The notes beneath the pieces were generated by a model, which was not told the DNA's origin, did not search any database, and saw only the letters and a list, made by a program, of their open reading frames with translations. A DNA stretch of 45,245 nucleotides, taken from a virus. The DNA is taken from IMG/VR virus record IMGVR_UViG_3300028176_000007, positions 1 to 45,245 of that record. One strand, given 5' to 3'. Positions 7,646 through 19,629 of this stretch are shown here, piece by piece. Position 1 is the first letter of the stretch, and every line of letters begins with the position of its first letter. Both the position numbers and the translations under genes were made by a program.

Positions 7646-7944
7646 TAGCTTCTCAACTTTGAATAAAAACCTGATGTTCCGCCTTTTTGTAAAATTCTAT
7701 GCGTACTTCCATTGACTACATAGTCAGAGTTAGCAAACCAAACGCTATCTAAGGGAGTCGTGGAGTAAACTCTTTTTAACTCTCCGCCGCATTTACAGAA
7801 TCTTTTTTCGTTAAGTTTTTCCTGTAAGGCGTCCTTATCCATTACCACTACGGTCTTGTGAGGTAAATCCGCCGTGCTTATAAATACTTCCTCTACGTTC
7901 CCGCATTGGGAACACTTAAAGTCATAGGTCAATTTGACATCCAC
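7645..7944 (-). CDS. Small zinc-ribbon protein (FmdB-like)
   Basis: 99 residues. An N-terminal CSQCG and a later FCKCGG make a two-knuckle zinc ribbon, with the sequence 'YDFKCSQCGNVEEVF' typical of FmdB-like putative regulatory ribbons found in many phages between terminase and portal. ATG at 7944 lies inside the end of the terminase gene (16 bp overlap). Role unknown; the position suggests that it assists packaging or head assembly or binds nucleic acid. The zinc-binding assignment rests on the two Cys pairs only. Confidence 0.75.
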   Translation of the reverse strand: MDVKLTYDFKCSQCGNVEEVFISTADLPHKTVVVMDKDALQEKLNEKRFCKCGGELKRVYSTTPLDSVWFANSDYVVNGSTHRILQKGGTSGFYSKLRS

Positions 7945-9476
7945 GTTGTTTGCAATTTTGTTCCCCAGAAGTCTCTATCGAGTAAATTTGCTTCATTTCT
8001 TATCTGGTGATCTGGGGCATACATTCTACGGGTTGCGTAATCAAACCCATCAAGAGTATCTTCGTGGTTGCCTTTTGGATACATAAAAAGTTCTCCCGTA
8101 AAAGCACCCATTCCCTCTTTCATTATCCAAACTCTCTTCTGGTAGAAATATCCGTGCAGTCTTTCAAGCCGTTTATTTTTTTCGTCTCTTGGTTTGAACC
8201 CGTCTGTCTGTTCAAATCCGGCACAGTAAAGATTTCTTTTATTAAGTTCAGCTTTAACCATTTCTCTAAGGGCTTCTTGATAATTGGTGGTTTCTATTCC
8301 ACCTCTTAATGGTTTTATAAGTTCTATATAATCGGCAATCTTAATTGCCGTTTCCATTGGAGTAATCCTATCTCTAAAAAATGGAAGACAATAAATTTGT
8401 TCATCGGTGCTGTAAGCGATTGGAAAGATTACTGTATAGTCTGCGGTCTGTTTTTGGCTTGAAGCAGGGTCAATCCCGATAAAAGTATTTACAGGAATTT
8501 TCTTGTCAACCTTAACCCCGTTTTCCTCTGTGATTTTCAGATACGCCTCTTTGCCGATAAACTCTAATTTTCCATCATAATAATTAAAATACTCCGGTCG
8601 GAATAATTGGTCTTCTCTTCCTTTAACCTGACATCTAAACTCTGAATAATATTTATATACCATCCCTCGTTTTTTGTGAGACTCAAACATTGCACGGCAT
8701 CTATCTTCGGGGTAAATATCTCCCCAAAGTAAATTCTTGAAATCATCATCGTGCAGTTCGTATTTTTTGACCACCCATTCATCGGTCTGCTTAATGTCTT
8801 CTTCCATTAAATCGTCATCGTTACCCATCAACCTTTCGACAATACATCCTTGAGCTACGGGAGTGCCTATTACAACGCATCTTCCGGTTCGTGGGTCTAA
8901 TCCTGCAAGCCCGCCCCAAAACTTATCAAAGTTATCAAGCATGGCGTCTTTAGTCTTTGTGTTGTCTTCACTATCTGGGTCGTCAAGAATGTAAAGCGTT
9001 ATACGGGTGTCTCCTTCAAGAATACCTCGTATCATCTGCCCCGTGCCTGCGGTAATTATCGAAACTCTATAAGCGCCTATTCTTGTCCTTACATAATCTT
9101 CTCTCCATGCTTCGGCTACCCCCTCGCCGCAATATCCGTATAAGTCTATAAAACTTTTTTCAGACTCAAGAATTTCTTTTATCTTGCTAAGTTTTCTTTT
9201 TGCCTCCCGTAAAGTCTTGCTCTGGATTACGATTACTTTATCACCTTCGTCATATATCGCATGGTGCAAGGCAAGTATTCTTATCAAAGAACTCTTTGCG
9301 GAACCTCTCGGAGCCTCAATGCAGATTTTTTTATTCTCTCTGTCATTTAAGACTTCCGCAAGTTCATAATGAAATTGAGGCGTAGAAGCCCAAAAGGTTG
9401 AAGGACTTATTTCTCTGCCAAAACCTATTAGGTCGCTTCTAAATCTTATTATTTTCTTTTCTTGTTCTTGTGTCAT
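7929..9476 (-). CDS. terL: Terminase large subunit
   Basis: 515 residues. N-terminal ATPase: Walker A 'IEAPRGSAKSSLIRI' near residue 55, Walker B 'ITLYILDDPDSED' near residue 160. C-terminal RNase-H-like nuclease: 'FIGIDPASSQKQTADYTV' near residue 335, a second acidic site near 'GGIETTNYQEA' and a third around 'NHEDTLDGFDYA' (residue 475). It translocates DNA into the prohead and cuts it. ATG at 9476 lies 12 bp after the previous stop and has no good Shine-Dalgarno site, so translation may be coupled to the upstream gene. Confidence 0.95.
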   Translation of the reverse strand: MTQEQEKKIIRFRSDLIGFGREISPSTFWASTPQFHYELAEVLNDRENKKICIEAPRGSAKSSLIRILALHHAIYDEGDKVIVIQSKTLREAKRKLSKIKEILESEKSFIDLYGYCGEGVAEAWREDYVRTRIGAYRVSIITAGTGQMIRGILEGDTRITLYILDDPDSEDNTKTKDAMLDNFDKFWGGLAGLDPRTGRCVVIGTPVAQGCIVERLMGNDDDLMEEDIKQTDEWVVKKYELHDDDFKNLLWGDIYPEDRCRAMFESHKKRGMVYKYYSEFRCQVKGREDQLFRPEYFNYYDGKLEFIGKEAYLKITEENGVKVDKKIPVNTFIGIDPASSQKQTADYTVIFPIAYSTDEQIYCLPFFRDRITPMETAIKIADYIELIKPLRGGIETTNYQEALREMVKAELNKRNLYCAGFEQTDGFKPRDEKNKRLERLHGYFYQKRVWIMKEGMGAFTGELFMYPKGNHEDTLDGFDYATRRMYAPDHQIRNEANLLDRDFWGTKLQTTWMSN

Positions 9477-12928: not shown

Positions 12929-13468
12929 ATGGAACAAATTAAGAAACAAGTCAGCCATGCTTTTGGGAAAGACGTTTATCTTGTTGGAGAGGATAAAGAT
13001 GGAATTAAATATTGGCTTGAAGCTCCAAAATGGGTTTGTGACTGGTATTGGGGTTTTGGTTGTATAGAAACATATCAGAGAAACAGAGTCCCTTCTGATG
13101 CCAACGATATCGACTCCCATCAGCATTTTAGTGGCTTCGTGGGGCAACAAGAAAAATATGATTTTGAAAAACGAGCTTTTGTTAAATCCGACTATGTTCA
13201 CAATATTTATGATAATTCGTTTTTTACTAAATTAACTTTTGACAAAAAACAAGGGTGGGAGCTTTCAGAATTATTCAGTCAGTTCTATCTATTGCAGAAA
13301 ATGGCTGGATATTGCCATAAGAAGCCCATACCGGGGTCGAACTTGACAACAGTTGAACGTGTTGATAATTCAGAATCAATAGCCGGATGGTATAACGAAA
13401 TAAATACTGTTATGATTCCCAAAATTACTGCCGAAATTATAAAAATATTAACACCTGATAAGGTTTAA
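12929..13468 (+). CDS. Hypothetical 179-residue protein
   Basis: 179 residues, rich in Trp, Tyr and Phe in the first half ('WVCDWYWGFGCIETYQRN'), no transmembrane segment. Has an excellent ribosome site (ACCGGAGGAAACAAA before ATG at 12,929) and its own promoter. This looks like a globular cytoplasmic protein common to some phages, but I cannot name a family or role. It is followed by a small three-way-junction RNA fold and a 56-codon gene. Confidence 0.7.
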   Translation: MEQIKKQVSHAFGKDVYLVGEDKDGIKYWLEAPKWVCDWYWGFGCIETYQRNRVPSDANDIDSHQHFSGFVGQQEKYDFEKRAFVKSDYVHNIYDNSFFTKLTFDKKQGWELSELFSQFYLLQKMAGYCHKKPIPGSNLTTVERVDNSESIAGWYNEINTVMIPKITAEIIKILTPDKV

Positions 13469-13474
13469 CTTCCA

Positions 13475-13521
13475 CCCCTTGCAAGCTGCAGGGCTTAACT
13501 GATTCGCTATCAGACAAGGGG
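13475..13521 (+). other. Compact three-way-junction fold between two genes
   Basis: CCCCTTG (13,475-13,481) pairs with CAAGGGG (13,515-13,521). Inside are two hairpins: AAGC/GCTT (13,483-13,496) and CTGAT/ATCAG (13,499-13,513). The shape resembles a self-cleaving ribozyme junction, but the hammerhead core bases are absent. It lies 6 bp after the stop at 13,468, so it would be on the same transcript as the true hammerhead 210 bp downstream. Confidence 0.45.
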
Positions 13522-13556
13522 ACAAAGATTTTTTAACTAACAAGGGAGTAAATAAG

Positions 13557-13727
13557 ATGAAAAGCAAGTCTTTAACAAATTGGATCAAAGAGAATCGGCG
13601 ACAAATTGACGAAGCAATTAGAAGAGCCGTCCCTAACGCACGCATTGATGACGCCGAAAGACGTTTATGGATTCTTAACGATGAGGGGCTATATCGTTGG
13701 GCGAAGTCTGAAAGAGTAAATATCTAA
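13557..13727 (+). CDS. Hypothetical 56-residue protein
   Basis: ATG at 13,557 follows AAGGGAGTAAATAAG and opens 56 codons, 'MKSKSLTNWIKENRRQID...DDAERRLWILNDEGLYRWAKS'. Small basic helical phage proteins with this 'ERRLWILNDEGLYRWA' ending recur in other phages, without known role. Its stop is only 2 bp before the hammerhead ribozyme, so the ribozyme trims the 3' end of its messenger. Confidence 0.7.
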   Translation: MKSKSLTNWIKENRRQIDEAIRRAVPNARIDDAERRLWILNDEGLYRWAKSERVNI

Positions 13728-13729
13728 AA

Positions 13730-13783
13730 GTCTAACTGAAGAGGGCTAACTGCCCGAAATACGCCGGGGGGCGTATATTAGAC
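13730..13783 (+). ncRNA. Type I hammerhead ribozyme
   Basis: Stem I: GTCTAA (13,730-13,735) with TTAGAC (13,778-13,783). Core CUGAAGA (13,736-13,742) fits CUGANGA. Stem II: GGGC/GCCC (13,743-13,755) with loop TAACT. Core GAAA (13,756-13,759). Stem III: ATACGCC/GGCGTAT (13,759-13,776) with a GGGG loop. The cleavage base H17 is A13777 after U16.1 (13,776). Every conserved base of the hammerhead catalytic core is present and stem I is open, so it is type I. Self-cleavage is expected after 13,777. It lies just after a small gene and 13 bp before a Shine-Dalgarno-like AGGAG, at the start of a gene-free stretch. The fold is read directly from the sequence; activity is inference from the known motif. 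Confidence 0.9.
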
Positions 13784-13798
13784 AAAACGAGGAGAAAA

Positions 13799-13843
13799 AT
13801 GAGAGAAAAATATTTTTTGTTTAGGTGCGAACAAAACCAGTGA
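13799..13843 (+). CDS. Possible 14-codon leader ORF after the ribozyme
   Basis: ATG at 13,799 follows CGAGGAGAAAA and opens 14 codons (MREKYFLFRCEQNQ). After ribozyme cleavage the RNA would start 21 nt before this ATG. The frame contains an AT-rich hairpin TTTTGTT/AACAAAA (13,815-13,836). It may be a leader peptide, a remnant, or not translated. Confidence 0.3.
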   Translation: MREKYFLFRCEQNQ

Positions 13844-14036
13844 GCAAAGGTCGGGGATCATTAACGCTGCACGAAAGTATTTATGCGTCATTGATTTTTG
13901 GGAGTTCTGTAAAATAACAGGGGCGTATTGATTTTTGAGAAGTAGAGAAATGATAGTGATAGGCAGAAGTGTCGAGCCTCTGCCTACCATGAATTTTTAG
14001 GGGCAAAGCACAGCCATGCCCCTATGAATTTTTGGA
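13815..14036 (+). ncRNA. Candidate structured RNA: repeated hairpins each followed by a TGAATTTTTG-like motif
   Basis: No gene fits in 13,844-14,121. The motif ATTGATTTTTG occurs at 13,890 and 13,927, and ATGAATTTTT at 13,989 and 14,024. Each follows a hairpin: a 7-of-9-bp stem around 13,858-13,893, CTGT/ACAG at 13,907-13,920, AGGCAGA/TCTGCCT at 13,961-13,985 and AGGGGCA/TGCCCCT at 13,999-14,023. The first pair is 37 bp apart, the last 35 bp. This hairpin-plus-tail module lies directly behind the hammerhead ribozyme on the same strand. No known RNA family was recognised. From 14,037 to 14,121 nothing else is evident. Confidence 0.5.
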
Positions 14037-14121
14037 CTACTGAATGACCAGCAATTTTTCCTCGCCGATTAGGGGTCTTAGGATCATGCGCCATTCCAAC
14101 CAAAATGTCAAATAACTGCTA

Positions 14122-18333: not shown

Positions 18334-19629
18334 TTATAAAATAAACTCCGGCAGATAATTCTGAAATTGTGTTCTCTCTTTTACGAAAGTTAAATCAATC
18401 TTACCCACCGCACCGTTTCTATTCTTCGCCACAATTAATTTAGCAAGATTTTTTGTGTCTTTGCCCGTCTCGTCCGTTGATTGTCCGTAAACTTCCGGTC
18501 TGTGAATAAACAGAACGACATCAGCATCTTGTTCGATTGCGCCAGACTCCCTTAAATCCGATAATTGAGGCTCCTTGCTTGTTCTATCTTCGACTTTGCG
18601 GTTTAGTTGTGATAAAGCCAAAACAGGAATATCTAATTCCCTCGCTACGTTTTTTAGAGATTGGGATATTTCCGAAATCTCTCTTTCCCGCCCCTCTTTG
18701 CTTACGCCTTTCATTAATTGCAAATAATCAACAACTAAAAGCCTAATGTTTTTTTCTGCTTTTAATCTTTTTGCTTTAGACCTAAATTCGATTGTAGACA
18801 GGGCTGGGGTATCGTCAATAAAAAGTGGGAGATTATTCTTTGATGCAGCCCTCATAATTATAGACATCTGAGACTCTTGGAAATGACCGCTTAATAAGTC
18901 CATAACAGAAATTTCCGACTCTTGGGAGATCATACGGGTGGATAATTGAGTTGCGCTCATTTCTAACGAATTAAACCCTACGGCATAATCGTCTGAAATA
19001 TTTTTAGCGATATTCAGGGCAAGGGCTGTTTTCCCCATTGCTGGTCTGCCCGCAAGAATAATTAATTCTCCGTTCTTAAAGCCCCCGATTAAGTTGTCTA
19101 AATCAAGAAAGTTAGTCCTTACTAAAAAATTATTCGCCCCCTTTGATTTTATGCTATGTAATAGCTCTAACGTGGTTTGATTAATAAACGACAACGGAAG
19201 AAAATTCTTCTTAAATGCGCCCTGAGTAATGTTAAATATTTTCCTCTCGATTTCTTCAATAGTCTCAAAAGAGTCCGACCGATTATTTAGAGTTTGTAGT
19301 TCAATCCCCAACTTATACAATTCTCTAAGCATAAATCTGTCATAGATAACCTGTTTAACTCTATCAATGTCGCAGAACTCCATTCCATAGTGGTCTATTG
19401 AATCGACCTCTATCTGGTGTCTCTCGGCGTAATCCCTAACGCTTAACTCATTTATATCCTCATTCTTTTTGTAAAGTTCTGAAATAATGTTAAAAACTCG
19501 GCGATTCTCTCCGTCAAAGAAATGCTCCGGTTTGAGTAGTTCTAAACTACTCCCCGCCTCAACTGATCCTTTGGTCAAAATAGTCTGTAATAAAAGTTTC
19601 TCTTTATCAACGGCATTAGGCAAATTCAT
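18334..19629 (-). CDS. dnaB: Replicative DNA helicase (DnaB family)
   Basis: 431 residues from ATG 19,629 (MNLPNAVDKEKLLLQTILTK start), which follows GGAGAAAATTT; the open frame begins earlier, inside the initiator gene. N-terminal domain about 1-110 binds primase or loader; RecA-like ATPase with Walker A 'GRPAMGKTALALN', Walker B 'IRLLVVDYLQLMK', motif 'LALSQLNRKVEDR' and the arginine-finger region 'RESGAIEQDADVVLFIHR'. It unwinds DNA ahead of the fork as a hexamer. It overlaps the initiator/loader gene, which presumably recruits it to the origin. Confidence 0.95.
   Translation of the reverse strand: MNLPNAVDKEKLLLQTILTKGSVEAGSSLELLKPEHFFDGENRRVFNIISELYKKNEDINELSVRDYAERHQIEVDSIDHYGMEFCDIDRVKQVIYDRFMLRELYKLGIELQTLNNRSDSFETIEEIERKIFNITQGAFKKNFLPLSFINQTTLELLHSIKSKGANNFLVRTNFLDLDNLIGGFKNGELIILAGRPAMGKTALALNIAKNISDDYAVGFNSLEMSATQLSTRMISQESEISVMDLLSGHFQESQMSIIMRAASKNNLPLFIDDTPALSTIEFRSKAKRLKAEKNIRLLVVDYLQLMKGVSKEGREREISEISQSLKNVARELDIPVLALSQLNRKVEDRTSKEPQLSDLRESGAIEQDADVVLFIHRPEVYGQSTDETGKDTKNLAKLIVAKNRNGAVGKIDLTFVKERTQFQNYLPEFIL

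Follow-up and report, generated by a model that had tools for sequence, protein, structure and literature searches.

Analysis of sequence and predicted fold confirmed a complete type I hammerhead ribozyme at positions 13730-13783 of the window, a complete IMG/VR record 45,245 bases long. This record comes from a tailed phage that encodes a P22-like portal, a terminase, an SU10-type capsid protein, DnaB, RecT and YqaJ. The element is probably an active ribozyme that acts in cis as an intercistronic mRNA processing site. We infer that the RNA does cleave itself and that separation of the messages is what selection maintains. The processing role is supported by the structure, a family of relatives with covariation, a layout of stop codon, hammerhead and start codon, arrays on one strand and a conserved genome position. 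An adenine at H17, a short stem I and a downstream open reading frame (ORF) of 14 codons, which leaves little to separate, are counted against it.

Sequence and fold of the hammerhead

On the plus strand, the motif reads GTCTAA, CTGAAGA, GGGC, TAACT, GCCC, GAA, ATACGCC, GGGG, GGCGTAT, A and TTAGAC in this order (Table 1). By the criteria of Perreault 2011 (PMC3088659), a hammerhead has 13 core positions, without exception, and three core-adjacent pairs. All 13 core positions (C3 U4 G5 A6 N7 G8 A9 G12 A13 A14 A15 U16 H17) were present in the window, and so were the three pairs, U13778-A13735 (1.1-2.1), G13743-C13755 (10.1-11.1) and A13759-U13776 (15.1-16.1). Adenine is a permitted base at H17 and is rarer in the group among the matches listed.

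The MFE fold of the motif alone was exactly the hammerhead (-21.2 kcal/mol, z -3.4), and the hammerhead fold was kept when about 70 nt of natural sequence was added at either end (191 nt in all). Both alone and in context, helices II and III were closed by loops and helix I was open; therefore, the ribozyme is of type I. Its helix I is very short (6 bp). The UNANU loop II and the As flanking stem I are present in the window and conserved in the group, and these As may make a tertiary contact with loop II. The original prediction of a complete type I hammerhead in a phage was borne out by the full set of core bases, three perfect stems, the MFE fold and the match to a covariance model of its relatives (R1, described below).

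Table 1. Features of the hammerhead and of its surroundings in the window
Feature	Position	Strand	Basis
Large terminase subunit	7929..9476	-	PHROG 38, PF17289
Upstream genes, 172, 42 and 179 codons	12214..13468	+	open reading frames
56-codon gene	13557..13727	+	open reading frame
A on the other side of stem I	13729	+	group conservation 90%
Type I hammerhead ribozyme, whole	13730..13783	+	sequence, fold, covariance model R1
Stem I, 5' arm GUCUAA	13730..13735	+	perfect pairing with 13778-13783 (sequence, fold)
Core CUGAAGA (C3-A9, N7=A)	13736..13742	+	sequence
Stem II GGGC/GCCC with pentaloop UAACU (group consensus loop UNANU)	13743..13755	+	fold, group alignment
Core GAA (G12 A13 A14)	13756..13758	+	sequence
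A15.1, first base of stem III	13759	+	sequence
Stem III AUACGCC/GGCGUAU with GGGG loop, including pair A15.1-U16.1	13759..13776	+	sequence, fold
H17=A; predicted self-cleavage between 13777 and 13778	13777..13777	+	position by homology
Stem I, 3' arm UUAGAC; start of predicted 5'-OH product	13778..13783	+	sequence, fold
AA adjoining stem I	13784..13785	+	group conservation 82% and 76%
Shine-Dalgarno-like AGGAG	13790..13794	+	sequence
ATG and 14-codon ORF	13799..13843	+	ATG 21 nt past the cut

Relatives and covariation

Relatives were searched with a pattern consisting of the core, CTAA/TTAG and free stems II and III, with adenine at H17 (A17 pattern). It matched 30 viral loci, 27 of which had hammerheads; L015, L016 and L017 matched without stems and were regarded as chance. 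The A17 pattern matched the bacterial/archaeal genome collection only twice (L040 and L041), and both matches failed the stem descriptor; all A17 hammerheads seen were thus in viral contigs. The version of the pattern with H17=C matched at least 120 stretches. With the window included, the group has at least 221 hammerheads (at least 189 distinct) in at least 134 loci, at least 133 of them besides the window. Shuffled copies of the 134 loci gave no hammerheads with the descriptor. The agreement of the core and of CTAA/TTAG among these relatives is by construction, because the pattern itself contained both. It did not contain the loop, the flanks, the outer stem I pairs or the inner pairs of stems II and III.

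R1 was built from 18 hammerheads of other viral contigs (A17 loci), with the window left out. It matched the window hammerhead with 65.3 bits (E=2.6e-15). Among the R1 relatives, 99.3% of cells were paired and both sides had changed in 9 of the 16 pairs. Double-changed cells numbered 55, versus 15 in shuffles, and slid controls collapsed. At the fixed positions of the loop II consensus, U-N-A-N-U, conservation was 99, 87 and 89% among the matches listed. No second credible match was found when the window was scanned with R1; the next best, at 19556 (9.7 bits, E=1.9), was regarded as chance. A retrozyme or another viroid-like circular RNA needs two ribozymes on the same strand, and the 45 kb record has one; such an element was therefore rejected.

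The genome position of the hammerhead is also shared. In the window it lies on the strand opposite the terminase gene, 4.25 kb 5' of it. All eight loci with distant terminase homologues (L157, L102, L065, L063, L122, L030, L125 and L005) have the hammerhead on the opposite strand as well, 1.7-4.6 kb 5' of the terminase. With the window added, the terminases form three lineages with about 26% identity between them; the eight loci account for two of these. That the placement is the same despite about 26% terminase identity argues for function. Close relatives were not found in viral_contigs through the 179-codon gene or the terminase, and neither the region nor the ribozyme had a match in phages by distant BLAST.

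Chance and the Rfam cut-offs

The window had a single occurrence of the core pattern, and 100 shuffles had none. A general descriptor (the exact core with stems I, II and III of at least 4, 3 and 4 pairs) is expected to match by chance 0.0005 times per window of the same size and composition. A simulation of 4.13 Gb yielded 22 matches, none of which had three stems as long as those of the window. The motif had been claimed to be very unlikely by chance, and this estimate held.

A significant Rfam match to a type I hammerhead had also been predicted, and this failed: nothing in the window scored above threshold. RF00163 (Hammerhead_1) had no match in the window, either at its gathering score or at E<=10. 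The best sub-threshold Rfam match near the site was to RAGATH-1-hammerhead (RF03152), with 19.1 bits versus the 56.3 required, and RF03152 was likewise the best sub-threshold match in two relatives. Among the matches listed, 3 of the 77 tested descriptor-confirmed relatives passed an Rfam cut-off, all with Hammerhead_1. These three siblings scored 36.1-36.2 bits versus a cut-off of 34 for RF00163, which is a database threshold and no structural feature. The window has no Rfam match above threshold because the cut-offs miss nearly the whole group. The miss is a weakness of the library and not of the candidate.

The missing Rfam match would also fit a chance resemblance without activity. However, with so few loose matches expected per window and none as good in the simulated sequence, and with the R1 match and the agreement of loop, flanks, gene layout and genome position, such a resemblance is extremely improbable.

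Gene-boundary layout across the group

Among the matches listed, the hammerheads occupied a narrow place between genes. Of 170 copies with a Shine-Dalgarno-preceded start codon within 150 nt, 143 had the first such start 20-44 nt past the cut, and in 161 the ORF after the hammerhead had at least 40 codons. The median distance from cut to start was 32 nt; in the two controls, which were measured from ordinary stop codons and from random positions, it was 216 and 251 nt. Upstream genes were considered if they had at least 60 codons (159 cases). Their stop fell within stem I or the first bases of the core in 77 cases, and in 45 more it ended 6-9 nt before the core, which makes 122 of 159 in all. 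The commonest placement was the UAA of CUAA within stem I. The setting behind a small gene had been put forward as new, but a stop codon, a hammerhead and a Shine-Dalgarno start turned out to be the usual arrangement of the group, seen in well over a hundred phage contigs.

The stops within stem I suggest that cleavage might be coupled to translation termination. A ribosome terminating in or beside stem I would then cover its 5' arm and delay folding until upstream translation stops. The stop placements just given (77 of 159 and 45 more) are consistent with such regulated cleavage. However, the tight packing of phage genes would give the same placement, and the stop in the window lies 2 nt outside the motif. 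We regard regulation of this kind as improbable.

In loci with two or more copies among the matches listed, all copies were on the same strand (42 of 42 loci), with a median gap of 487 nt, which is about one gene; the maximum was 14 copies per contig. Such hammerheads would apparently divide long messages into pieces of one gene each. A T7-like viral contig of 18.8 kb (L160) had 11 hammerheads on one strand, and two T7-like contigs of 39.8 kb each (G010 and G031) had 13 and 14, again on one strand. In L160, the hammerheads border the RNA polymerase gene and a large number of small genes. In 69 hammerhead loci, the commonest identifiable upstream neighbour was an anti-restriction/zincin-like family (PHROG 7245; Pfam MPTase-PolyVal, partly ArdcN), which stood directly upstream in 8.

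Cultured phages carry the group as well. The Pelagibacter phages HTVC019P (L162), HTVC131P (L164) and Ran (L165) and the Flavobacterium phage elemoC (L163) have one group hammerhead each, in all four cases without annotation as a ribozyme. The pelagiphage copies lie shortly before a MarR-like gene, an integrase and an RNA polymerase. In elemoC, an annotated antisense ORF overlaps the hammerhead.

The hammerhead in its operon

The window fits the group layout. The stop of the 56-codon gene (TAA, 13725-13727) ends 2 nt before stem I, exactly as the original prediction had it, and the ATG follows at 21 nt from the cut. An AGGAG had been placed 13 bp further on; this distance is correct from the cut, but from the end of the motif it is only 6 nt. 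The 172-, 42-, 179- and 56-codon genes are likely one operon. Two of them, with 172 and 179 codons, match PHROG families of unknown function; for the 56-codon gene, PHROG, Pfam and the phages gave no match. Just ahead of the 56-codon gene, a branched RNA structure is predicted at 13466-13562; by this prediction its outer helix, ACUUCC with GGGAGU, would hide the ribosome-binding site of that gene. A scan of the region for sigma-70 promoters and terminators gave nothing above shuffled expectation.

Beyond the 14-codon ORF, minus-strand genes converge on the operon. Between the converging operons, at 13850-14060, there are hairpins spaced by repeated (A)TGA(A)TTTTT stretches, and the fold of 13778-14100 is moderately more stable than shuffled expectation (z -2.2). 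The hammerhead had been thought to separate the upstream message from this structured region. Its place behind a gene stood. The relevant partner on the downstream side is probably the ribosome-binding site with the start codon, at 13790-13801, and not the more distant structured region.

Processing at this site would proceed as follows. Once the polymerase has passed 13783, stems I-III would form and the RNA would cut itself between A13777 and U13778. The upstream message, with its four genes, would carry the folded ribozyme core at its 3' end, terminated by a 2',3'-cyclic phosphate. The downstream product would begin with 5'-OH-UUAGACAAAACGAGGAGAAAAAUG, a short, open, A-rich leader with its own ribosome-binding site. 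As the downstream gene is seemingly reduced to 14 codons, cleavage may matter mainly for the 3' end of the upstream message.

An active hammerhead might even serve for 3'-end formation only, trimming and capping the upstream operon with a stable folded core while the downstream piece is waste. Apart from the 14-codon ORF, the hammerhead is indeed the last feature of the plus-strand operon before the converging minus-strand genes, and the folded core of type I hammerheads remains on the upstream product. However, 161 of the 170 relatives among the matches listed have a gene of at least 40 codons at a fixed short distance, and the window, too, keeps its AGGAG-ATG with the ATG at 21 nt. We consider this explanation unlikely.

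The 14-codon ORF is unusually short, one of the shortest of the 170 among the matches listed. This raises another explanation, that the group processes messages but the downstream gene of this phage has decayed and left a cleavage-competent relic without present use. Every core and paired position is intact in the window, which would be unexpected after long neutral drift, and a relic seems quite unlikely. Intercistronic processing by an active hammerhead is still our preferred reading of the element.

Significance of the group

The fixed anatomy, a stop codon, a ribozyme, 20-44 nt and a start codon, recurs across many phages among the matches listed. It is accompanied by arrays confined to one strand and by copies in Pelagibacter and Flavobacterium phages that are in culture, and intercistronic processing can thus be put to a direct test in laboratory infections. 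At the present Rfam cut-offs, most such ribozymes in phage genomes are missed. It is possible, but we put it forward only tentatively, that this large type I group overlooked by Rfam serves tailed phages in general as a message-processing system made of RNA only, a counterpart of the T7 RNase III sites. Its ribozymes would follow a stop codon and precede a ribosome-binding site, with as many as 14 of them per contig among the matches listed, and the upstream stop in stem I would tie cleavage to translation termination.

Comparison with known systems

Phage hammerheads, and the idea that they process phage messages, have been known since 2011; in that report, tandem phage hammerheads were active in vitro and one set was active in E. 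coli (Perreault 2011, PMC3088659). The element in the window is another example of them. The role of hammerheads in prokaryotes was still an open question in a 2017 review (PMC6155905). As in the prophage and phage clusters described in the 2011 report (PMC3088659), the hammerheads of our group flank single genes or short gene blocks, and processing of long transcripts was proposed there. Some of those clusters lie beside anti-restriction, MarR and integrase genes, and the pelagiphage copies likewise adjoin MarR and integrase genes. The passages of that report consulted here do not contain the precise layout of stop codon, hammerhead and Shine-Dalgarno sequence, T7-like arrays of 10-14 copies or the four cultured-phage copies. 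We found no description of the stop/hammerhead/start layout in the open-access literature, which was the scope of our search (subscription papers and preprints lay outside it). Within that literature, the size of the group below the Rfam cut-offs, the fixed gene-boundary anatomy, the T7-like arrays of 10-14 copies and the cultured hosts seem to be new.

Among the Rfam models, Hammerhead_1 (RF00163, clan CL00010) shares with the window the core, the topology with an open helix I and the predicted cleavage site. In contrast to that family, the window and 74 of its 77 siblings among the matches listed fall below the cut-off, and they combine a 6-bp helix I with the UNANU loop and the flanking As. 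The extra 5' hairpin of the RAGATH-1-hammerhead model (RF03152) was not found in the window.

Phage T7 has RNase III processing sites between its early genes. Like these sites, the hammerheads would cut between co-transcribed phage genes, and some of the richest hammerhead arrays were in T7-like contigs. Unlike at the RNase III sites, the RNA would cut itself with no host enzyme, leaving 5'-OH and 2',3'-cyclic phosphate ends.
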